NCBI GenBank assembly: GCA_030432595.1
Contig: JAUIGU010000002.1
Span: forward strand, 1 to 64,000
Length of the DNA stretch: 64,000 bases
Direction of reading: 5' to 3'
Origin: Phycisphaerae bacterium
Lineage (GTDB): Bacteria > Planctomycetota > Phycisphaerae > Phycisphaerales > Phycisphaeraceae
Part shown: positions 3,563-61,535 of the stretch, piece after piece
Position numbering within the stretch: position 1 is the stretch's first letter
How the letters are laid out: each line of letters opens with the position of its first letter
The notes under the pieces: generated by a model
The model's database searches: none
Told to the model about the DNA's origin: nothing
Seen by the model: only the letters and a program-made list of their open reading frames with translations
Program-made: the position numbers and the translations under genes

Positions 3563-3582
3563 GGGAAGCTCCCTGCGGTCGC

Positions 3583-3734
3583 AGTGGTCAGTGGTCAGTG
3601 GTCAGTGGTCAGTGGTCAGTGGTCAGTGGTCAGTGGTCAGTGGTCAGAATCCTATTAATCACAGAATGGATAAAGCACATGATGAAGTCAGTTGTAAGCC
3701 AAGTGCTTCCTTCTTATCTGATCACTGACCACTC
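3583..3734. repeat. Mirror element A: AGTGGTC heptanucleotide array with inverted partial copy
   Basis: The unit AGTGGTC is repeated about 9.3 times without error from 3583 to 3647. After a roughly 70-bp AT-richer spacer, about two units recur in inverted orientation (GATCACTGACCACTC, ending at 3734). The element occupies the gap between the co-oriented DUF1800 and DUF1501 genes. Confidence 0.9.
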
Positions 3735-3755
3735 AACTCTGCGTCAGCAGAGTTG
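3734..3755 (-). terminator. Hairpin overlapping the DUF1800 stop codon
   Basis: Perfect inverted repeat CAACTCTGC-GTCA-GCAGAGTTG with 9-bp arms. It spans the last codons and stop of the DUF1800 gene and abuts mirror element A. No T-tract follows, so it is at most a weak terminator or an RNA-processing stem. Confidence 0.45.
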
Positions 3756-7021: not shown

Positions 7022-7027
7022 GAAAGA

Positions 7028-7276
7028 ACCACCGATGAACGCGGATGAACGCCGAATCAGAAAGGGAGTTTAGCCGCAGATTTCGCAGAACACGCAGATT
7101 CTTTCAGTCATGATTTCAGGATGAACAGGAGAATCAGGATGAAGTAACGGCGTGTCTAGGCCCGTTCCTGATCTTCATGCTCATCCTGATTCGCTGATTC
7201 CAAATCTGCGTCATCTGCGAAATCTGCGGTTCCGTGCTTGTTTCTTATCCGTGTCCATCCGTGTTCATCGGTGGTT
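7028..7276. repeat. Mirror element B: three nested inverted repeat blocks
   Basis: Three different repeat blocks occur in mirror order. Block 1 is GATGAAC-CGGATG type (7028-7052 against 7249-7276). Block 2 is CAGATTTCGCAGA type (7074-7100 against 7202-7229). Block 3 is CAGGATGA/ATCAGGATGA type (7112-7142 against 7170-7199). The centre is about 27 bp. It fills the gap between argH and the FHA-GAF kinase and encodes the last residues of ArgH. Confidence 0.85.
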
Positions 7277-8666
7277 CCAACCGCGACTTCCATTTGCCCA
7301 CCTGCTCTTTGAACCCCGACGCCCCCGCGTTGCCGGCGGTGCGGTAGCGCTGGACCACGTTCTCGGGGCCAAGCCACTCGAAGACGTCTTCTTCGACCGC
7401 GTCGCACTCGGCCCGCATCTCTTCGAGGGACAGCTTGCGCAGCTCGAAGCGTTCGAGGTCGTCCGCCTTGCGCACCAGCCGGCCGACGATCTGGTGACTC
7501 GTGCGGAACGGCACGCCCTTGGTCACCAGGTACTCCGCCAGCGAGGTCGCGTCGAGGTGCCCGCGGTGGAGCCGCTCGGCGATACGGTCCTCGCGGAAGT
7601 CGGACGTACTCACGATCCGCGTGGCCATGAGCAGGCAGTCCTTCACGCAGTCGTACGCCGCGAAGACGTGGCGTTTGTCCTCTTGCAGGTCGCGGTTGTA
7701 GCCGACGGTCAGGCCTTTGCACATGGTCAGCAGCGCCATCAGTGCCCCGTACGGCGTCGATGCCTTGCCACGCAGCAGTTCAAGCATGTCGGGGTTGCGC
7801 TTCTGCGGCATCATCGACGAACCGGTGGTGAACGCGTCGTCGAGCTGGATGAAGCCGAACTCTTCGGAGGCGTAGATGATCCACTGCTCGGCCCAGCGCG
7901 AGAGGTGCATGGCGATGGTCGTGCATCCGTACACGAAGTCCAGCGCCGAGTCGCGCGTGGCGGTGAAGGCGATGGAGTTCCACGGCGGCTGCTCGAAGCC
8001 AAGCGCCGTGGCGGTCGCGGTCGGGTCCAGCGGCAGCGACGACCCCGCGATCGCGCCTGAGCCCAGCGGCGAAGCGAACATGTGCAGCACGCACTGGTGC
8101 AGGTACCACCGGTCCGAGTCGAACATGCAGCACCACGCCAAACACTCGCTGCCCGCGACGATGGGCTGCGCTCTTTGCAGGTGCGTGTACGCCGGCATGA
8201 CCACATCGGCGTTGCGCTCCGCCATGGCGACGTACGCGCTGCACAATTCGGTGAGCAGGCCGTACAACTCCTGGGCCGCCTCGCGGACCCACATCATGAG
8301 GTCGGTGGCGACCTGGTCGTTGCGGCTGCGCCCGGTGTGCAGTTTCCGCCCCGCGTCGCCGGCCTTTTCGATGAGCGCCGCCTCGACGCACATGTGCACG
8401 TCTTCCAGTTCGACCTTCCACCCGGGCCAGGCGTCGCCCTGCCGCTCGATCTCGGCTTCGATCTCTTTCAGCCCGACCTCGATGGCCTTCAGGTCGGCGG
8501 CGGTGATGAGCCCGACGCCCTCGAGCATCCGCGCGTGGGCGATCGACCCGCGGATGTCGTGTTTGTACAGCCGCTTGTCCACGTCCAGCGACGCAACGAA
8601 CCGCGCCGCCAACGGGTCGGCCTCGCTGCCAGAGCTTTTCGCGTGTTCCCAGGGTTTTTGGGCCAT
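7245..8666 (-). CDS. argH: Argininosuccinate lyase
   Basis: 473 residues. ArgH splits argininosuccinate into arginine and fumarate, the last step of arginine synthesis. The fumarase/aspartase-superfamily signature GSSMMPQKRNPD is present, together with TGRSRNDQVATDL and YTHLQRAQPI. The start MAQKPWEHAKSSG is chosen because upstream sequence runs into the divergent gene at 8740. The C-terminal RLEPPMNTDGHG is encoded by repeat block 1 of mirror element B, so the native end probably lay near VGKWKSRL. No other arg gene is nearby. Confidence 0.95.
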   Translation of the reverse strand: MAQKPWEHAKSSGSEADPLAARFVASLDVDKRLYKHDIRGSIAHARMLEGVGLITAADLKAIEVGLKEIEAEIERQGDAWPGWKVELEDVHMCVEAALIEKAGDAGRKLHTGRSRNDQVATDLMMWVREAAQELYGLLTELCSAYVAMAERNADVVMPAYTHLQRAQPIVAGSECLAWCCMFDSDRWYLHQCVLHMFASPLGSGAIAGSSLPLDPTATATALGFEQPPWNSIAFTATRDSALDFVYGCTTIAMHLSRWAEQWIIYASEEFGFIQLDDAFTTGSSMMPQKRNPDMLELLRGKASTPYGALMALLTMCKGLTVGYNRDLQEDKRHVFAAYDCVKDCLLMATRIVSTSDFREDRIAERLHRGHLDATSLAEYLVTKGVPFRTSHQIVGRLVRKADDLERFELRKLSLEEMRAECDAVEEDVFEWLGPENVVQRYRTAGNAGASGFKEQVGKWKSRLEPPMNTDGHG

Positions 8667-13082: not shown

Positions 13083-13096
13083 GGGCGAAGCCAGGC

Positions 13097-13208
13097 AAAA
13101 GTCAAAAGTGAAAAGTCGAAAGGCAAAAGCCGAATAAACAACGCCTCAAGCAGAACCCTTGCATACCCGGTTCTCCACTTTCGACTTTTGACTTTTCACT
13201 TTCGACTC
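13097..13208. repeat. Mirror element C: AAAAGTC/AAAAGTG heptads
   Basis: The left arm (13097-13131) is five heptads: AAAAGTC, AAAAGTG, AAAAGTC, GAAAGGC, AAAAGCC. After about 41 bp of spacer the right arm (13173-13208) reads, on the minus strand, GAGTC followed by GAAAGTG, AAAAGTC, AAAAGTC, GAAAGTG. It fills the gap between the HTH-receiver gene and the HDOD kinase. Confidence 0.9.
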
Positions 13209-13220
13209 GCCTATCGAAGC

Positions 13221-14164: not shown

Positions 14165-14764
14165 CGGCTGAAAACATAAAAGCTTTGCACCGCACGACCT
14201 CCGCGCCCTCCGCGCCTCCGCGGTTCAAACGGCTGCGCAACAACGTGCACCCGCGCCCCGAGATAAGCCCCGCTTCTTCCCGACCCTTCCGGGGGCCGGG
14301 GGGTGGCGGGGGCCCGCAGGTTGTCGCGGGGTTCCAGGTCGGTGAGGCCGTGTCTCGGTGAAACGAGGGGTCCGCTGCGTCGATGGTATCTGGGTGGTGC
14401 GCCCGGCGAGTGGATGCTCGCACGCAAGGCGTAAGAGTTGAAGAATGAGCGCCACCCCACGCTTCGCAAGACCCCCGACGGGACATGAGCCGAGCGAGTC
14501 CGATCCGAACGCGACGGCTCGCCGAGGTCGATGCAAGGTGTGCATCAGCGTGGTGCTGCGTGAAGTGGGAGCCGCCGCCGCGTGGGATGATGATCCGGCC
14601 CTGGTGAAGGTGGCGATATAAAGCGGCCGACGGTGTCGGCCGTTCGGGGCGCGTGTTTGCGAGCGCTCGACGGCGGCCACCGGCCGCCGCTTTGTAGAGC
14701 TGCCGGCTCTTTGACAAGTGAAGCAGGGGCGTTGTCGCTCCAACGTGGCGTCGAGAGAAGAGAA

Positions 14765-23730: not shown

Positions 23731-23803
23731 CGCGCGGCGTCTGCTTACGAGGCGTGCAGACCTGACCAGATGGCCGCATTCGACGGGTGCGTACACTGGG
23801 CGC

Positions 23804-25162
23804 ATGTCCACCCGCAGTGCCGCCGTTGCCGAACCGTCCGAAGCCGCCACCGAGCGTTACGCCAAGTCCGCCGCCGCGCACGCCGCGGCGAAGAAGGTCA
23901 TGCCCGGCGGGGTGAATTCGCCCGTCCGCGCCTACAAAGCGGTGGGGCGTGACCCCGTGAGCGTCGTGTCGGGCAAGGGCGCGGTCGTCACCGACATCGA
24001 CGGCAACGACTACGTCGACTACGTCGGCAGCTACGGGCCGCTGATCCTCGGGCACGCCGCCGCGCCGATCACCGCCGCGGTGAGCAAGGCGCTGCAGCGC
24101 GGCACGACGTTCGGCATGCCCACCGAGGCGGAAACCCGCCTGGCCGAAAACGTGGTCAAGGCCGTGCCCGGTGTCGAGGTCGTGCGCTTCGTGAACTCCG
24201 GCACCGAGGCCGCCATGTCCGCGATCCGTGTCGCCCGCGGCGTCACCGGACGCAACAAGGTCATCAAGTGCACGGGCTGCTACCACGGGCACACGGACGC
24301 GCTCCTGGTCAGCGCCGGGTCGGGCGCGACGACGCTGGGCGTGCCGAGCTCGCCGGGCGTGCCGGCGTCGGTGGTGCAGAACACGGTGCTCGTGTCGTAC
24401 AACGATCTCGAAGCGGTGCGCTCCGCGATGGAAACGCACCGGGGTGACGTGGCGTGCATGGCGGTCGAGCCGGTCGCGGGGAACATGGGATGCATCCCGC
24501 CGGCCGATGGTTATTTGCAAGGTTTGCGTAACCTTTGCGACGAGTTCGACGTGCCGTTGCTCTTCGACGAAGTCATGACCGGTTTCCGTGTCGCCTACGG
24601 CGGCGCGCAAGAGCGGTACGGCGTCACGCCCGATCTCACCTGCCTGGGCAAAGTCGTCGGCGGTGGCCTGCCCTGCGCCGCGTATGGCGGGCGCGAAGAC
24701 TTCATGCGCCACGTCGCGCCCGACGGCCCGATCTACCAGGCCGGCACGCTCAGCGGTAACCCGCTCGCGATGGCCGCGGGCCTAGCCCAACTTGAGACGC
24801 TCGCCGCCGACGACTTTGCGGCGTATGAGCAACTCGAAACCACCGCCGCCGCGCTCGAAGCCGGGCTGCGCAAGGCGGCCAAGAAGGCGAAGTGCCCGGT
24901 CACGCTGACGCGCGTGGGCTCGATGCTGTGCGTGTTCTTCACCGACACCGACGAAGCCCCGGTCACGAACTACGAGCAGGCCACCGCCACCCGCACCGAC
25001 CGCTACGCATCGTTTTTCAACGCCATGCTCGACCACGGCGTCATGCTCGCGCCGGCCGCGTTCGAGGCCTGGTTCGTCTCCACCGCCCACGACGACGCGA
25101 CCACCAAGGCCACCCTCAAGGCCGCGGAGAAGGCGTTCGCCGCGGCGGCAACGATTCAATAG
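23804..25162 (+). CDS. hemL: Glutamate-1-semialdehyde 2,1-aminomutase
   Basis: 452 residues. It converts glutamate-1-semialdehyde to 5-aminolevulinate in the C5 pathway of haem synthesis, using PLP or PMP. Family landmarks are VMPGGVNSPVRA near the N-terminus, VRFVNSGTEAAMSAIRVAR, CYHGHTDALLV, LLFDEVMTGFRVAYGGAQ and the PLP-lysine motif CLGKVVGGGLPCAAYGG. ATG 23804 gives a normal N-terminus. The stop TAG overlaps the first bases of the left arm of mirror element G. Confidence 0.96.
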   Translation: MSTRSAAVAEPSEAATERYAKSAAAHAAAKKVMPGGVNSPVRAYKAVGRDPVSVVSGKGAVVTDIDGNDYVDYVGSYGPLILGHAAAPITAAVSKALQRGTTFGMPTEAETRLAENVVKAVPGVEVVRFVNSGTEAAMSAIRVARGVTGRNKVIKCTGCYHGHTDALLVSAGSGATTLGVPSSPGVPASVVQNTVLVSYNDLEAVRSAMETHRGDVACMAVEPVAGNMGCIPPADGYLQGLRNLCDEFDVPLLFDEVMTGFRVAYGGAQERYGVTPDLTCLGKVVGGGLPCAAYGGREDFMRHVAPDGPIYQAGTLSGNPLAMAAGLAQLETLAADDFAAYEQLETTAAALEAGLRKAAKKAKCPVTLTRVGSMLCVFFTDTDEAPVTNYEQATATRTDRYASFFNAMLDHGVMLAPAAFEAWFVSTAHDDATTKATLKAAEKAFAAAATIQ

Positions 25163-25618
25163 CCACAAGAAGCACAGGAGACACAAAATGGAGGAGCACG
25201 AAGCCCGTCAGCTCGCCGACCGGGTCCGGGAGACCGCGTACGCGCTGCACGTGTATTTGCGACACGGGCATCTGGAGAAGGTGTACGAGAACGGACTACG
25301 CCACCGGCCGCAGAAACAAGGTCTTTCGGTGACGAGCCAAGTGCCGCTGAGTGTTCGCGATGAAGACGGTGCCGTGCTGGGAGAGTACTTCGCCGACCTG
25401 GTGATCGACGGCCAGTTCGTGATCGAGGTCAAGGCGTGCAAGACGCTGGCGGAAGAGCACACCGCTCAGGTCCTGGGCTACCTCCGCGCGACGGGGCTGG
25501 AGCACGCTATCCTCGTGAACTTCGGTGCCCCGAAACTCCAAATACGCAAGTTTGCGAAGATGGATTCGTACGAGGCTTGAGACGTTTCTATTCTGTGTTT
25601 TTTGTGCCTCTTGTGGCT
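25161..25618. repeat. Mirror element G: inverted arms enclosing the GxxExxY gene
   Basis: The left arm at 25161-25189 begins AGCCACAAGAAGCACAGGAG and the right arm at 25590-25618 is its inverse, starting AGCCACAAGAGGCAC on the minus strand. The two 29-bp arms agree at 24 positions. The left arm starts inside the hemL stop codon and ends on the ATG of the enclosed gene; the right arm ends 7 bases before the serA start. A related element without a gene is at 29656-29864. Confidence 0.85.
25188..25580 (+). CDS. GxxExxY protein (PD-(D/E)XK nuclease-like)
   Basis: 130 residues. The family-naming motif appears as GHLEKVYENGLRH, followed by a nuclease-like core: EYFADLVIDGQFVIEVKACK supplies the Asp and the Glu-x-Lys of a PD-(D/E)XK fold, then HTAQVLGYLRATGLEHAILVNFG. 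Members of this family occur in multiple copies in planctomycetes and verrucomicrobia; their function is not known to me. It sits between hemL and serA in the same direction, flanked on both sides by inverted copies of an intergenic repeat arm, as if it were cargo. Its ATG lies inside the left arm. Confidence 0.9.
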   Translation: MEEHEARQLADRVRETAYALHVYLRHGHLEKVYENGLRHRPQKQGLSVTSQVPLSVRDEDGAVLGEYFADLVIDGQFVIEVKACKTLAEEHTAQVLGYLRATGLEHAILVNFGAPKLQIRKFAKMDSYEA

Positions 25619-25625
25619 GAACATC

Positions 25626-27344
25626 ATGCCTGAAAAGACCTTCACACTCCTCGCCGCCGACAAGCTCGCCGACGAAGGCCTCGCGTACATCAAGGACCAG
25701 CCCGACGCCGAGCTGCTCAACCGCCCCGACCTGGTCGCGCTCAAGGCCGAGAAAGGTCAGGACGCCGTTGACGAAGAGGTCGGCAAGCTCCTCGCCGCCG
25801 GCGGGGTCCACGCGATGGCCGTGCGCTCGGGCATCAAGGTCACGCCGAAGATGCTCGAGAACCCCGGCGACCTCAAGGTCATCGCCCGCGCCGGCGTCGG
25901 CGTCGACAACATCGACCTGCCCGCCGCCACCGCGAAGGGCATCCTCGTCGTCAATACCGCCGAGGCCTCCACCATCACCACGGCCGAGCTTTCGTTCACC
26001 CTGCTCATGGCCCTGCTCCGCAAGATCGGGCCCGCCTCGCGCACCATGCACGCCGGCGGGTGGGACCGCAACAAGTTCAAGGGCCGGCAACTCCACGGCC
26101 TCACGCTCGGCGTCGTCGGGCTTGGACGCATCGGACGCACGGTCGCCGAACGCGCGATCGCCTTCGGCATGGACGTCGTCGGCTACGACCCCTTCGTCAA
26201 CACCGACCTGCAGCTCGGTGCCCACACCGTCAAGACCTTCCGCGACTTCGCCGACATGCTCCCGCACGTGGACGTGCTGTCTTTCCACGTGCCCAAGACC
26301 GAGCAGACCACCGGCATGCTCAACGCCGACACGTTCGCCAAGTGCCGCAAGGGCGTCTACGTCGTCAACGCGGCCCGCGGCGGGATCGTCGACGAGGCCG
26401 CCCTGCTCGAAGCGCTCGAGTCCGGGCAGTGCGCCGGCGCGGCGTTGGACGTGTACACGAGCGAACCCCCGCCGGAAGACTTCCCGCTGCGCACGCACCC
26501 CAATGCGCTCTGCGTACCCCACCTGGGCGCATCCACCGAGGAAGCGCAGACCGCCGTGTCCGTCGAGGCCGCCAAGGCCTGCCTCGCGTACCTGCGCGGC
26601 GAGGGCATCAAAGGCGCGGTCAACGCCGGCGGCGTCCGCGTGGACCTCACCGAGAAGCAGCACGCCTACGTCGCCCTGGCCGACCGCATGGCCACGCTGA
26701 TCTCCCCGATGGTCACGCGCGGCATCGCCGAGGTCACGGTCGAGCTTTGCGGCAAGGACCTCGCCGCGGCGGCCGGGACGATCGAGCGCACCGTGCTCAT
26801 CGGGCTGTTGCGTCGGCACTTCGACACGCCGCTGAACGTGATCAACGTCGCGGACGTCGCCGACCAGCGCGGCATCAAGGTCGCCACCACCACCCACGAG
26901 ACCGGCTCCAAAGCCCCGCAAGCGCTTGCGGGGCTATCGGGCCAGCTCACGCTCACCATCACCGGCCCCGAGAGCGCGACCGACTCGGACACCCCCGCCG
27001 CCGACCGCACCCGCCGCGTCGTCGGGCGCGTCTACGACGACGGCCTGCCGCGCGTGCTCGAGATCAACGGCTACCCGATGGACATGGTGCCCGCCGGCCC
27101 GATGGTCGTCATCCGCAACGACGACAAGCCGGGCATCATCGGCACGGTCGGCACGACCTTCGGCGCCGCCGGCGTCAACATCGCCGACATGACCATCGCC
27201 CGCCGCGCCACCGCCGACGGCAAGGCGTTCACCGCGCTCATGCTCCTGAAGATCGACGCCGAAGCACCGCAGGCGTTGCTCGACGACCTAAAGACCAAAG
27301 ACGGCATCCTCAAGGTCGCGTCGGTGACGCTGCCGGGGTGTTGA
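25626..27344 (+). CDS. serA: D-3-phosphoglycerate dehydrogenase
   Basis: 572 residues, slightly longer than the usual long form (about 525). It oxidises 3-phosphoglycerate with NAD, the first step of serine synthesis. Visible are IARAGVGVDNIDLPAA, the Rossmann motif GVVGLGRIGRTVAERA, catalytic NAARGGIVDE (Arg), ALDVYTSEPP (Glu) and PHLGASTEEAQ (His). An intervening ASB domain and a C-terminal ACT domain (VVIRNDDKPGIIGTVGT) follow. Extra length lies near the N-terminus (EKGQDAVDEEVGKLLAAGG) and in a linker before the ACT domain. A perfect 24-bp palindrome interrupts the ASB domain. ATG 25626 is chosen for the normal N-terminus. Confidence 0.95.
   Translation: MPEKTFTLLAADKLADEGLAYIKDQPDAELLNRPDLVALKAEKGQDAVDEEVGKLLAAGGVHAMAVRSGIKVTPKMLENPGDLKVIARAGVGVDNIDLPAATAKGILVVNTAEASTITTAELSFTLLMALLRKIGPASRTMHAGGWDRNKFKGRQLHGLTLGVVGLGRIGRTVAERAIAFGMDVVGYDPFVNTDLQLGAHTVKTFRDFADMLPHVDVLSFHVPKTEQTTGMLNADTFAKCRKGVYVVNAARGGIVDEAALLEALESGQCAGAALDVYTSEPPPEDFPLRTHPNALCVPHLGASTEEAQTAVSVEAAKACLAYLRGEGIKGAVNAGGVRVDLTEKQHAYVALADRMATLISPMVTRGIAEVTVELCGKDLAAAAGTIERTVLIGLLRRHFDTPLNVINVADVADQRGIKVATTTHETGSKAPQALAGLSGQLTLTITGPESATDSDTPAADRTRRVVGRVYDDGLPRVLEINGYPMDMVPAGPMVVIRNDDKPGIIGTVGTTFGAAGVNIADMTIARRATADGKAFTALMLLKIDAEAPQALLDDLKTKDGILKVASVTLPGC
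26912..26935. repeat. Perfect 24-bp palindrome inside serA
   Basis: AGCCCCGCAAGC followed directly by its reverse complement GCTTGCGGGGCT. It encodes APQALAG within a linker of the SerA regulatory region. The outer AAAGCCC/GGGCT and the GCAAGCG core resemble the intergenic palindrome families. Confidence 0.75.
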
Positions 27345-28974: not shown

Positions 28975-29640
28975 ATGGCCGACGACACCCACGACCACCC
29001 CTGGCTCGAATCCCTGCGCGGTCAGTTTGTCGTCTTCGACGGGCCGGACGGTTCGGGCAAGACCACGCAGTTCCACCGATTCACTGAGCTCGCCGAGGCG
29101 CACGGCGTCCGCGTGTGCGAGGTGCGCGAGCCCGGCGGCACCGCCATCGGCGAACAGATCCGCGACCTGCTCCTGCACTACCGCGACGACGAGCACGGCG
29201 AGATGGCGCCCTCCTGCGAGATGCTGCTGTTCATGGCGTCGCGCGCCCAGCTCATCGCCGAACGCATCCGGCCCGCACTGGCGGACGGCTGCCTCGTGCT
29301 CGCCGACCGGTTCATCAGCTCCACCCTCGCGTACCAGGGCACAGCCGGCGGCACGCCCATCGACGACATCGTCCAGGTCGGGCAGGTCGCGCTGGGACAA
29401 ACCTGGCCGGACCTGGTCGTGGTGTTCGACGTCGATGAAGCCACCGCCGCCAAACGCCTCAACCCCCTGCTGGACCGCATGGAACAGAAGGGCGCCGACT
29501 ACCACCAGAAAGTCCGGCAGGGCTACCACGACCAGGCGCAGCGGCAGCCGGAGCGTTACCTGGTGATCGACGCGCGGGCGGAGGAGGATGTGGTGTTTGA
29601 GCGGTTGCTTGAAGCAATGGCGAACAAAAGTCGCGGATAA
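28975..29640 (+). CDS. tmk: Thymidylate kinase
   Basis: 221 residues. It phosphorylates dTMP to dTDP. The P-loop FDGPDGSGKTTQ is near residue 22, followed by CEVREPGGTAIGEQIRDLLL, the DRF motif LADRFISSTLAYQG and the LID region DRMEQKGADYHQKV. ATG 28975 fits the family; about 15 extra residues precede the P-loop strand. Two glutamates and an aspartate of the LID are as expected. It is followed by mirror element H and then a convergent lytic transglycosylase gene. Confidence 0.95.
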   Translation: MADDTHDHPWLESLRGQFVVFDGPDGSGKTTQFHRFTELAEAHGVRVCEVREPGGTAIGEQIRDLLLHYRDDEHGEMAPSCEMLLFMASRAQLIAERIRPALADGCLVLADRFISSTLAYQGTAGGTPIDDIVQVGQVALGQTWPDLVVVFDVDEATAAKRLNPLLDRMEQKGADYHQKVRQGYHDQAQRQPERYLVIDARAEEDVVFERLLEAMANKSRG

Positions 29641-29655
29641 CCGCAGGTTTTTAAT

Positions 29656-29864
29656 TGGCCACAAAGATGCACAAAAGACACAAAATGAGCTGGATCAACC
29701 CGAAGCTTTGAATCGGAAGACGGCAAGTCAAGGCATATGAAAACCAATCGACGTGGCCCAGCCTTTGAGGCTGCAGACCTCCATATTCGTCTTGGTGCAC
29801 TTGGCGTCTTGGCGGTCGGTAGAAACCAAATCGCCTTCTGTGGATTATGTGCCGTTTGTGGCCA
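29656..29864. repeat. Mirror element H: inverted GGCCACAAA...CACAAAA arms
   Basis: The left arm (29656-29686) contains GGCCACAAAGATGCACAAAA and the right arm (29834-29864) is its inverted relative. The spacer (about 147 bp) includes a run TTGGTGCACTTGGCGTCTTGG, a single arm of the repeat type seen in element I. It is the gene-free counterpart of element G and fills the gap between tmk and the convergent transglycosylase. Confidence 0.75.
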
Positions 29865-29879
29865 TTTTTCCGCGACCAA

Positions 29880-30473
29880 CTACAAGCCCGCCTCGGCCTT
29901 AACCCGCTTGACGTACGCCTTTGTCTTCGGTCCGGCAAACTTTTCCACCAGTTCATTCGGCGACAGCTTCGGGTTCTCGCGGCGCAGCTTGCTCACGCGC
30001 GTCGGGCCCATGTGGTACGCCGCCAGCGCAAGCGTGACGTCGTCGTCGAAGCGGTTGAGCAGGTACGCGAGGTAGCGGGTGCCGACGGTGAGGTTGTAGT
30101 CCGGATCAAAGAGGTCGCCGTCGGGCAGATCGAAGCGCTGCATCGCGTCTTCGTGGGTGATGGGCGTGATCTGCATGAGACCTTTGGCCTTGGCGGAAGA
30201 GTGGGCCTCGGGGTTGCCGCTGCTCTCGGCCAGGACGACGGCCCGCACGAGCAGGGGGTCGACGCCCGCCTGTTCCGCCTTCTCGTCGATCAGGCCGTAC
30301 CACTGCGAGACCCGGTAGTGCCGAACACTGTCGGCGCACGACCGCAGCGTCCAGGGAAAAATGAACCCCACGAGCAGGATGGCGACGACGAGCACGGGCG
30401 GCCAGACGCGCGGGTTCTTCGCGGCCTCCTGCGCGGTCTTCGTGGCCGTCTTGACCCAGTCGCGTCCTTGCAT
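29880..30473 (-). CDS. Lytic transglycosylase (SLT family), membrane anchored
   Basis: 197 residues. An N-terminal segment VLVVAILLVGFIFPWTL anchors the protein in the membrane. The SLT/goose-lysozyme-type catalytic domain follows, with the catalytic Glu in VLAESSGNPEAHS, then KAKGLMQITP and LALAAYHMGPTRV. It cleaves peptidoglycan glycan strands with anhydro-muramyl formation in known families. The minus-strand start is close to the divergent yicC gene, with 69 bp between them. Confidence 0.92.
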   Translation of the reverse strand: MQGRDWVKTATKTAQEAAKNPRVWPPVLVVAILLVGFIFPWTLRSCADSVRHYRVSQWYGLIDEKAEQAGVDPLLVRAVVLAESSGNPEAHSSAKAKGLMQITPITHEDAMQRFDLPDGDLFDPDYNLTVGTRYLAYLLNRFDDDVTLALAAYHMGPTRVSKLRRENPKLSPNELVEKFAGPKTKAYVKRVKAEAGL

Positions 30474-31440: not shown

Positions 31441-31563
31441 GAAGGAGTCAGAAGTCAGGAGTCAGGAGCGATCACGGCGCGTTTATCATTCATCGCAGCG
31501 TCTCGAACTGGCTTTGTGGCTTGTCGTGAGTGACTACTGGCTACTGACTCCTGGCTACTTCCG
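31441..31563. repeat. Mirror element D: AGGAGTC/AGTAGTC heptads
   Basis: The left arm (31441-31469) reads GGAAGG then AGTC, AGAAGTC, AGGAGTC, AGGAGCG. The right arm (31527-31563), read on the minus strand, is CGGAAGT then AGCC, AGGAGTC, AGTAGCC, AGTAGTC. The left arm starts 5 bases after the yicC stop and the right arm ends 3 bases before the next ATG. Element E at 61404 belongs to the same family. Confidence 0.88.
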
Positions 31564-47568: not shown

Positions 47569-47595
47569 GCGGTGATCCTAGACCTCAAGGAGGCT

Positions 47596-47704
47596 GAACC
47601 GCCAAGACGCCATGGTCGCCAAGCTCGCCAAGCGAAGCAAAAACTCACTCAAACCAACAAAGAACTTAAATGTCTTCTTGGTGCTCTTGGCGTCTTGGCC
47701 ATTC
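47596..47704. repeat. Mirror element I: GCCAAGACGCC-type inverted arms
   Basis: The left arm (47596-47632) has GAACCGCCAAGACGCC then TCGCCAAGC repeats; the right arm (47672-47704) inverts GAATGGCCAAGACGCCAAGA. The spacer is about 39 bp. It fills the gap between the photolyase stop and the SDR start, and the photolyase stop codon lies in the right arm. Confidence 0.75.
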
Positions 47705-49247
47705 AACCTTCTTCCGTCACCTCCGCGATGAACTTGCCCGCCTTGGTGAAGATGCGGTGCTTGCGTTCGTCATCCATCTTGTTCAGCGTGCCGAGCATCA
47801 CCGACAGCCGGGCGTTGCCCTCGAAAAAGTCGCGGTGGTGGTCTACAAACCGCCAGTACAAGCCGTCAAGCACCTCGCACCAATCCTCCGACTTCGTGTA
47901 GCAGTCGCTCATCTTCACCAGGTAGTTGCTGCCGCAGACGTACGGCTTGGTCGCGAACACGCCGCCGTCGCTCATCAAGCCCATGCCGTACACGTTCGGG
48001 GCCATCACCCAGTCGCTGCTGTCGACGAACATGTCCATGAACCAGGCGTACGCCTGACGCGGGTGCACCTCGCAGAGGTTGAACAGGTTGCCCATGACCA
48101 TGAGCCGCTCGATGTGGTGCGTCCACCCGAAGTTCAAGGCTTTCTTGATCACGTCGTCCAGCGGCCGCAGCCCCGTGGTGCCGTCGTACCAGCAAGGCTT
48201 GAGCGTCCGCGTGTGCCCCCAAAAGTTCTTCCGCTCGTGCGTGTCGTCGTAGTGCTGATACACCCCGCGGATGAACTCCCGCCAGCCGATGACTTGACGG
48301 ACGAAGCCCTCGAGCGAGTTGATGGGGATGCCGTGTTCGTCGGCATGCTCAACCGCGCGCCCCACGATCTCGCCCGGCGTGATCAAACCCAGGTTCATCA
48401 TCGGCGACAGCACGGAGTGAAACAGCACCGGGTCGCGGTCGCTGAGTGCATCTTCGTAAGGCCCGAATCCCCGGAAGCGTTCATTCAGAAACGCACGCAA
48501 CCAGGCCAGCGCCTGGCGCCGCGTCGTGGGCAACCAGAACCCATCCGCGTCACCGGGGTGATCCACGAAACGGTCCTTGACCAACGCCTGCACCGCGCGA
48601 ACGTGCTCCGTCGGCTCTGCCCAACGCGTCTCCGGGACCTCCACCTTACCGGGGAGCTTCTTGCGGTTTTCGTCGTCGAAGCTCCAACGCCCGCCCGTCG
48701 GCTTACCGTCTTTGGTCAGCAGCAAATCCAGTCGCTTGCGCTGCCGCTCGTAGAACCGGGCCATGAACGGCTTGCCGTCGCAGTCCTCGACGTACTCCGC
48801 GAACGCCTTCCGCGGGGTTACGAACATTGGCGAGGACAGCACCGTCAGCTTCAACCCCTTCCGCTCCGCAAAGTCTTCGATCCGCTGCTCAAACCACTTG
48901 TCCTCGATCTCCCAGACAATCAACTCGTCGCAATCGAGCGACTTCGTTTCGTCCAGGTACCGCTCGAGCTTGGTCTCGTACTTCGTCCTGAGCTGCGCTC
49001 CGGCCTGGTCTTCGAGTGATTCATAATGAACCGTGCATCCGTGGCCCCGCAGCTCGTCCCGGTAGCTCCGCATCGCCGCGAGGAACAGCACGATCTTCTG
49101 CTGGTGGTGCTTCGTGAACGTGCAGAGCTCGTAGTCCTCGGCGATGAAGTACCGCGGTGTCGTGGGGTCCTTGCCCTGCTTCTGCAACTCCGCCCAAGGA
49201 AAGAGTTGGTTCCCCAACACCACGAAAACCTTCTTGATCGACGCCAT
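47703..49247 (-). CDS. Cryptochrome/photolyase, DPRP (FeS-BCP-like) family
   Basis: 514 residues from ATG 49247 (MASIKKVFVVLGNQLFPW). The family start VVLGNQLFPW and IVWEIEDKWFEQRIEDFAER match the DPRP family, which includes bacterial (6-4) photolyases binding FAD and a [4Fe-4S] cluster. Later segments include RGFGPYEDALSDRDPVLFHS, LNFGWTHHIERLMVMGNLFN and TKPYVCGSNYLVKMSDCYTK. The Cys-x-x-Cys that usually holds the cluster is not obvious. It diverges from the class II photolyase gene across 49 bp. Confidence 0.88.
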   Translation of the reverse strand: MASIKKVFVVLGNQLFPWAELQKQGKDPTTPRYFIAEDYELCTFTKHHQQKIVLFLAAMRSYRDELRGHGCTVHYESLEDQAGAQLRTKYETKLERYLDETKSLDCDELIVWEIEDKWFEQRIEDFAERKGLKLTVLSSPMFVTPRKAFAEYVEDCDGKPFMARFYERQRKRLDLLLTKDGKPTGGRWSFDDENRKKLPGKVEVPETRWAEPTEHVRAVQALVKDRFVDHPGDADGFWLPTTRRQALAWLRAFLNERFRGFGPYEDALSDRDPVLFHSVLSPMMNLGLITPGEIVGRAVEHADEHGIPINSLEGFVRQVIGWREFIRGVYQHYDDTHERKNFWGHTRTLKPCWYDGTTGLRPLDDVIKKALNFGWTHHIERLMVMGNLFNLCEVHPRQAYAWFMDMFVDSSDWVMAPNVYGMGLMSDGGVFATKPYVCGSNYLVKMSDCYTKSEDWCEVLDGLYWRFVDHHRDFFEGNARLSVMLGTLNKMDDERKHRIFTKAGKFIAEVTEEG

Positions 49248-61403: not shown

Positions 61404-61535
61404 TTTCAGGAGTCAGGAGTCAGTAGACAGGAGTCAGTAGGCCCGACCCGTTGCTTTGCTCCGTCTTCCATCTCTCCCATGTGGCGTGGCGTCGTCAACT
61501 TCTGACTACTGACTACTGGCTCCTGACTACTTCCG
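61404..61535. repeat. Mirror element E: AGGAGTC/AGTAGTC heptads
   Basis: The left arm (61408-61442) has heptads AGGAGTC, AGGAGTC, AGTAGAC, AGGAGTC, AGTAGGC. The right arm (61502-61535), on the minus strand, reads CGGAAGT then AGTC, AGGAGCC, AGTAGTC, AGTAGTC, AGAAGTT. The spacer is about 60 bp. It lies between PilT (stop at 61537) and gspF (start 61398) and is of the same family as element D, in the opposite gene orientation. Confidence 0.88.

Follow-up and report, generated by a model that had tools for sequence, protein, structure and literature searches.

What does a small gene of the GxxExxY family do between two inverted repeat arms, in the gap that separates hemL from serA? The question is raised by a stretch of 64,000 nt of contig JAUIGU010000002.1 (assembly GCA_030432595.1, from a Phycisphaerae bacterium), the whole of which is referred to here as the window. 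The explanation that we modestly favour is that the gene and its two arms constitute one selfish, horizontally moving element which settles in intergenic gaps. Two lines of evidence carry it: similar arms accompany GxxExxY genes in many groups of prokaryotes, and the spelling of the arms follows the protein that lies between them. At the window locus the arms measure 32 nt each, are 81% complementary and stand 394 nt apart, and the score of the pair was matched by none of 2000 dinucleotide shuffles of both flanks (Table 1). A preliminary description of this DNA had proposed a complete GxxExxY gene carried between inverted arms, an ATG formed within the left arm, and arms that touch the hemL stop and lie close to the serA start, all of which was borne out: the gene is matched by PF13366 and TIGR04256, its ATG (25188) falls inside the left arm, the start of that arm overlaps the TAG stop of hemL (25160-25162), and 7 nt separate the end of the right arm from the ATG of serA (25626).

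The open reading frame (ORF) matches PF13366 (PDDEXK_3) with an E-value of 1.9e-27 and TIGR04256 (GxxExxY) with an E-value of 9.2e-31 and 106.6 bits, over the curated cut-off of 35 bits, and no family besides these two was found in it in Pfam or NCBIfam at E up to 0.001. The AlphaFold2 model is of the PD-(D/E)XK type, with a mean predicted local distance difference test (pLDDT) of 92.7, and among solved structures it comes closest to Sulfolobus SSO0001 (4ic1; Foldseek E 4.7e-4, VIA Z 10.0), which we take to be a Cas4-type protein; lambda exonuclease, MGME1 and Hjc rank lower, and a sequence-profile search of solved structures with GxxExxY gave nothing at E up to 1. Among 42 GxxExxY sequences, D70 and K82 are invariant and E80 is kept in at least 90%. 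With this fold and these D...ExK residues the window protein is a predicted small nuclease, the substrate of which cannot be read from the modelled fold. The source genome (4.39 Mb) holds seven GxxExxY genes, one of them (L005) with an in-frame stop. The family is present in 22 of the 41 genomes of a search of relatives and in 138 of 294 genomes sampled from the host phylum, with 501 matches in the positive ones (mean 3.6, up to 14 per genome). GxxExxY is a curated family for which the literature found gave no role: the accessible parts of those papers name it only in passing and do not describe flanking arms, and a literature search, to which subscription journals were mostly out of reach, returned no account of GxxExxY with flanking repeats.

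Each gene was given an arm score, that of the best inverted alignment of its left flank with its right flank, and was counted as armed at 14 or more. The phylum-centred set comprised 104 loci from the source genome, its relatives and a phylum-wide draw, mostly best-scoring matches and not a random sample (104 examined against the 501 matches of the 294-genome search), and the named-genome set comprised the best 80 of 586 loci from many phyla. Loci with a short flank on one side were kept in the arm counts, as were genes holding stops (L005, L026 and L114; L136, L175, L179, L183 and L184), and L054 and L132 are probably one genome present in two collections. The preliminary description had accepted that its proposal would be wrong if most GxxExxY genes lacked flanking arms; in fact, inverted arms were found at 141 of 184 genes. 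In the phylum-centred set 88 of 104 loci were armed, versus 1 of 101 positional controls taken from flanks 300-550 nt out, and in the named-genome set 53 of 80, versus 0 of 66 (1 of 167 for both sets of controls together). With serA as a control gene, none of 24 loci was armed, two short ones being excluded. Armed copies occur in 14 phylum-level groups, the counts by group including 15/17 in Pseudomonadota, 9/19 in Bacteroidota, 6/9 in Chloroflexota and 0/1 in Methanobacteriota. In the source genome, six of the seven genes are armed at this threshold, each with its own spelling (CGCAGAG, CGCGGAG, CACAGAT, CACGGAG, CACGAAG/CGCGAAG and CACAAGA), and the seventh copy, L003, shows unit-like repeats only downstream when read by eye.

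The arms obey a common grammar. Read from outside to inside, a typical arm consists of about three 7-nt units of the form C-R-C-R-R-A-G/T, often preceded in the alignment rows by AAC or TTCAC. The strict unit pattern occurs three times in 66 of 117 left arms and is missing from 17, and unit starts lie 8-10 nt apart, with 8 nt in 72 and 9 nt in 74 of 178 steps. Between the left and right arms of one element the unit positions agree at 0.82-0.996 and the spacers at 0.63, while across loci the agreement is 0.40 in the spacers and 0.52-0.70 at the variable unit positions. Since units match from left to right far better than spacers do, it is the units with their local spelling that are conserved, and not mere complementarity. 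Selection of the arms as an RNA stem was also considered, and a test for G-U asymmetry gave no signal of it: in 117 loci with a score of 16 or more and no more than 75 nt of aligned left arm, G-U pairs were not favoured in the sense transcript, the mismatches tolerable in sense RNA numbering 118 and those tolerable only in antisense RNA 119. A scan of the window with Rfam gave nothing at the gathering threshold.

The spelling of the arm units, here called their dialect, follows the protein. Over 112 loci (those with stops being dropped), protein identity and arm similarity were correlated with a Mantel rho of 0.52, and none of 500 permutations was as high. For 36 of 43 copies the arms were more like those of the protein-nearest copy elsewhere than like those of less related siblings in the same genome (p 3e-9), and swapping arms among the copies of one genome reached the observed rho in 0 of 1000 trials; the dialect link is therefore not a host effect. 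A tree was built of the 98 proteins whose arms gave three or more readable units (14 were dropped); it is based on few columns and leaves many of its forks unresolved. A single branch (support 97/49) separates the nine GAT-dialect proteins from the rest, and GAT requires 1 change versus a shuffled mean of 8.8, with 0/500 shuffles as low; the distinction between GAG and AAG changes often. Moreover, the association could be followed out of sample. A profile built from the nine GAT-type proteins and run on the 294 genomes returned 30 loci, of which six were removed as profile members or as already in the set; of the 24 scored, three more were already in the set, which left 21 new ones. Twenty of these were armed (score at least 14) and all 20 were of GAT dialect by a classifier that is a plain letter count, the remaining 108 earlier loci giving 6 GAT, 98 GAG and 4 undecided. 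These results show that the gene and its arms are one heritable unit. As for single residues, the strongest association with dialect is at residue 88 in the numbering of the L052 protein, which is N in 8/9 GAT versus 0/89 others, those for other unit positions being much weaker; because the GAT copies form a single group in the tree, residue 88 is confounded by descent and is not claimed as the residue that sets the dialect.

Table 1. Features of the window discussed in the text, with coordinates, strand and the basis of each assignment.
Feature	Position	Strand	Basis or detail
Left inverted arm	25161..25192	+	Units CACAAGA-AG-CACAGGA-GA-CACAAAA; repeat search, shuffle test
GxxExxY gene, 130 aa, predicted PD-(D/E)XK fold, putative catalytic D70/E80/K82	25188..25580	+	PF13366, TIGR04256, AlphaFold2
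Right inverted arm, left-arm units on opposite strand	25587..25618	-	Repeat search, shuffle test
hemL, class-III aminotransferase, upstream neighbour	23786..25162	+	PF00202
serA, D-3-phosphoglycerate dehydrogenase, downstream neighbour	25626..27344	+	PF02826, PF00389, PF19304, PF01842
Gene-free mirror element, CACAAA-type arms	29653..29867 (arms 29653-29685 / 29836-29867)	.	Units CACAAA/CACA; shuffle 24/2000
Gene-free nest, outer arms of CACCGATGAA/CACGGATGGA type	7026-7055 / 7248-7277	.	0/2000 shuffles (nest)
Same nest (7026..7277), inner arms of CGCAGATTT type	7074-7100 / 7203-7229	.	
Single CGCGGAG-type arm in dispersed REP-like composite repeat	14199..14222	-	

Arms are also found without the gene. 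In the 294 genomes of the host phylum, a search with three successive CRCRRAG units gave 5,809 matches, versus 160 for the reversed pattern; overlapping matches within one arm were counted separately, and the gene and pattern counts per genome were transcribed by hand, the totals for positive genomes agreeing with the tallies. Such arms are present in 117 of 138 gene-positive versus 51 of 156 gene-negative genomes, at least four matches occur in 101/138 versus 20/156 (Fisher 5e-27), and the mean per genome is 37.7 with the gene and 3.9 without it. Arms following the GAT pattern are likewise present in 76/138 gene-positive versus 17/156 gene-negative genomes. Arms without any correlation to the gene would have spoken against the preliminary description, and across genomes the two are correlated. 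Where the gene is present, arm matches are about ten times as numerous as genes (37.7 against 3.6 per genome, with two arms to a gene and overlaps included). The same description had pointed to a gene-free element of the same arm family at 29656-29864. It does exist, with CACAAA-type arms, and is weak when taken alone, as 24 of 2000 shuffles reach its score; the spacer within 29600-29900 held no convincing GxxExxY trace when searched with 184 query proteins (best tblastn match 8 residues, E 0.048), and seven gene-free elements of the window gave only short weak matches to GxxExxY remnants (best E 0.039). In G289, ten dispersed gene-free loci (L326-L335) with CACAAAG/CACGAAG arms match one of their number at 75-98% over about 200-490 nt, which indicates that gene-free members do multiply. 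The terminal inverted repeats of these G289 elements reach beyond the units, and other repeats surround them; the set lends itself to locating the exact ends of such elements.

Further gene-free structures were observed. The window contains mirror elements at 3573-3750, 13090-13210, 31443-31552, 47587-47713 and 61406-61531, with units of the types CAGTGGT, AAAAGTC, GTCAGGA and CGCCAAGA. Mirror arms that differ in dialect are nested concentrically, and follow one another inwards in a similar order, at 7026-7277 of the window and at L237, L246 and L230 in the source genome; the fullest nest in that genome reads CGCCAAG, CACAGAG, CGCAGAT and CAGGATG from outermost to innermost. A composite repeat of about 170-190 nt consists of one CGCGGAG-type arm followed by palindromes resembling repetitive extragenic palindromic (REP) sequences, TCAGCCGCACTGC...GGGCTGCGGCT; besides the window copy (Table 1) it was found at L234, L235, L242, L243, L245, L251-L255 and L257-L259. 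The 51 arm matches of the source genome merge by eye to 37 sites, and of 20 sites read, 13 belong, again by eye, to this one repeat.

Comparison of junctions between genomes reveals how such loci turn over. The 260 nt upstream of serA were read by eye in 26 of 27 serA loci (L229 excluded), hemL being the upstream gene in 22 of the 26. No GxxExxY match near serA was found in the other relatives of the 41-genome search; in G001, of the same genus, and in G007 the hemL-serA gap is occupied by a mirror element that lacks the gene and has another dialect, and the gap upstream of serA is about 25 nt or less in G003, G005, G011, G015 and G024. In G017 (L216) a long palindrome resembling REP sequences was noticed by eye at this junction. 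G030 and G034 have the element between two genes identified by eye as groEL and dnaJ; it is absent from that junction in the close relative G025, the flanks of which are 91-93% identical to those of G030. A second junction carries a CGCAGAG-type GxxExxY element in G251, G158 and G087; in G189 it is occupied by CACAGAT arms that enclose a truncated gene, for which the three best matches belong to the GAT clade (E 5e-17, residues 50-113), and in G108 by similar arms with a gene shred of at most 12 residues, the best match of which is also GAT-clade (E 0.003). From these comparisons it is seen that elements are inserted or lost, give way to elements of a different type, and decay. Regarding orientation, for which neighbours were crudely taken as the longest open frames of at least 100 codons, 54 of 99 loci have GxxExxY on the same strand as its two neighbours and 8 have it opposite to both, the corresponding numbers in the named set being 39 and 7 of 64.

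The architecture is not confined to GxxExxY. The source genome also contains ten genes of TIGR02436, the S23 or four-helix-bundle family (L037-L046), and together with loci from the phylum (L260-L288) 28 of 39 S23 loci are armed at a score of at least 16 (0/34 positional controls) and 29 of 39 at a score of at least 14 (1/34). One small protein between arms of inverted tandem units is therefore an architecture common to two protein families. The best period of the S23 arms is 7 nt in 20 of 26, versus 8 or 9 nt in 91 of 117 GxxExxY arms. The S23 arms were seen to be 7-nt tandem units of highly diverse spelling. As set out in the accessible text of PMC4990558, S23 ORFs are known in the intervening sequences (IVSs) of 23S rRNA, which are bounded by terminal inverted repeats and have been proposed to be mobile in origin; the Coxiella IVS ends in a stem of 28 bp, and RNase III is the enzyme that excises IVSs.

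If gene and arms do form one selfish moving element, a mechanism can be proposed. In both arms the GxxExxY nuclease would recognise the units that belong to its dialect, whether in duplex form or in the stem of an extruded cruciform or of a hairpin on the lagging strand; cutting at the arms would release or copy the element, or any arm pair of the same dialect; and repair would place the released or copied element at new intergenic positions. Mirror elements without the gene may then be satellites mobilised in trans, or products of decay. That the protein binds, cuts or moves the arms we infer, and the link between dialect and protein fits arm recognition by the protein without proving it.

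Several findings weigh against this proposal. Co-inheritance of gene and arms alone would suffice to produce the link between protein and dialect. No pair of gene-bearing copies from the same genome, out of 39, reaches 60% protein identity, so that the copies look like separate arrivals, and no recent copying of the gene within a genome is seen in the sampled copies. Under the arm threshold lie 43 of the 184 GxxExxY genes, several of which show visible yet degenerate units, and when the flanks of different loci are paired with each other, 10% of the pairs in the phylum set and 14% in the named set score as armed, a high rate due to the resemblance between the arms of different copies. Gene and arms also dissociate in some genomes: 13 of the 156 gene-negative ones have at least ten arm matches, and 21 of the 138 gene-positive ones have no CRCRRAG match, eight of these having GAT arms. 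Reading two junctions by eye, with intergenic flanks that align poorly, revealed no target-site duplication, and the strand preference would be explained by read-through expression or by a role at the transcript level. Furthermore, the family is very rare on plasmids (7 matches among 72,556 records; of two inspected, that of Bacteroides finegoldii has clear arms, score 22.5, and that of Treponema saccharophilum none, score 11) and gave no match in 50,697 phage records, so that it has no known vehicle.

Some of these points would be expected if the protein were a passenger, that is, if the arms were made and spread by another activity, either host replication and repair or another enzyme, with GxxExxY and S23 as the surviving cargo and the dialect link following from inheritance as a block. 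Such an account would accommodate two unrelated ORF families in one architecture, the many mirror elements of the window without a gene and the arm-rich gene-negative genomes, and co-inheritance would yield the Mantel, swap, tree and out-of-sample results without any recognition. Nevertheless, arm matches are about ten times rarer without the gene, each family has an arm grammar of its own (best period 8-9 nt for GxxExxY versus 7 nt for S23), and the D/E/K residues are conserved; the account is judged unlikely. A transcript-level role, as in the 23S rRNA IVSs, is quite unlikely: the arms would pair in operon mRNA and be processed by RNase III, with GxxExxY acting on RNA or being incidental. 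The siting of S23 ORFs in IVSs, with the Coxiella stem and its RNase III excision (in the accessible text of PMC4990558), and the shared direction of GxxExxY and both neighbours (54/99, opposed to both in 8) favour it, but the G-U signature is missing (118 vs 119) and the spacers are far less complementary than the units, unlike those of a selected RNA stem.

Two further accounts keep a nuclease at the centre. GxxExxY might be a resident nuclease of DNA repair or chromosome structure and the arms its binding sites, as operators and dispersed sites, with nothing selfish about them. The dispersal of arms in many genomes, the conserved D/E/K residues and the presence of GxxExxY-type arm units in REP-like composite repeats would all suit such a function; the patchy presence of the family (22/41 relatives, 138/294 genomes), the several divergent copies per genome, and the different occupation of one junction in related genomes, with a truncated copy among them, make it very doubtful. 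Lastly, the nuclease could behave like a homing endonuclease, cutting empty intergenic sites into which repair copies the element, the arms being a by-product or a protection of the filled allele. A single small nuclease-type ORF in intergenic siting is what this predicts, and repeated arrival would leave copies of one genome unalike with their nearest relatives elsewhere, as is observed. The element, however, carries conserved, cognate-looking motifs in its own ends, and reading the junctions by eye brought no common motif in the flanks to notice; we consider homing highly improbable.

Returning to a selfish element of gene and arms, its broadest form would be a new class of prokaryotic selfish element, in which GxxExxY and cognate arms, with dialect-specific recognition and gene-free satellites, are spread over at least 14 phylum-level groups. 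This wider claim is tentative, its chances falling somewhat short of even. If true, the rRNA intervening sequences would belong to a second class, that of the S23 four-helix bundle with its heptamer arms, and a protein in a mirrored repeat would represent a general form of mobility without a classical transposase. The link to cognate repeats gives the GxxExxY family a testable function and the 5,809 pattern matches, representing thousands of small repeats in the 294 genomes, a likely origin; in addition, the natural dialects are material for studies of binding specificity.

Among known systems, classical DDE transposons and their miniature inverted-repeat derivatives (MITEs) have terminal inverted repeats, an internal gene and gene-free derivatives. 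The elements described here share inverted ends, an internal gene and gene-free derivatives, but they contain no DDE transposase, no target duplication was recognised, and their ends are imperfect arrays of tandem units that vary from copy to copy. The 23S rRNA IVSs are alike in having a single small ORF between inverted arms and a proposed selfish or mobile origin (accessible text of PMC4990558), whereas GxxExxY is unrelated to S23 and the window element lies between protein genes, hemL and serA, and not in rRNA. The closest parallel is with the REP-associated tyrosine transposases (RAYTs, or TnpA_REP) and their repeats, which include REP, BIME and the REP doublets forming hairpins (REPINs), to which the preliminary description had already likened the locus. 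A nuclease gene stands beside matching inverted repeats, the flavour of the repeats fits the protein, and extragenic gene-free doublets are present; in fact, inverted doublets, more numerous gene-free copies and protein-matched flavour are all found. The nearest relatives of a copy lie mostly in other genomes, and according to the part of PMC3116915 available the RAYTs of one genome almost never cluster and have their nearest relatives elsewhere. The comparison with an autonomous transposon fares worse, given the lack of closely related copies within a genome and the arm-rich genomes without the gene. RAYTs are HUH tyrosine enzymes acting on palindromic REP sequences, mostly GTAG-tagged (available part of PMC8266576). 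GxxExxY, by contrast, has a predicted PD-(D/E)XK fold and no HUH (Y1) transposase, its arms are tandem 7-nt units with a period of mostly 8-9 nt and not a tagged palindrome, and it reaches 14 matches per genome. With neither an HUH enzyme nor a tagged palindrome, the element is therefore not a RAYT. Our best reading, by analogy, is that it may be functionally similar to a RAYT with its REPINs, built from an unrelated nuclease and unrelated repeats, and it would then be a second, independent case of co-evolution between a nuclease and its repeats.

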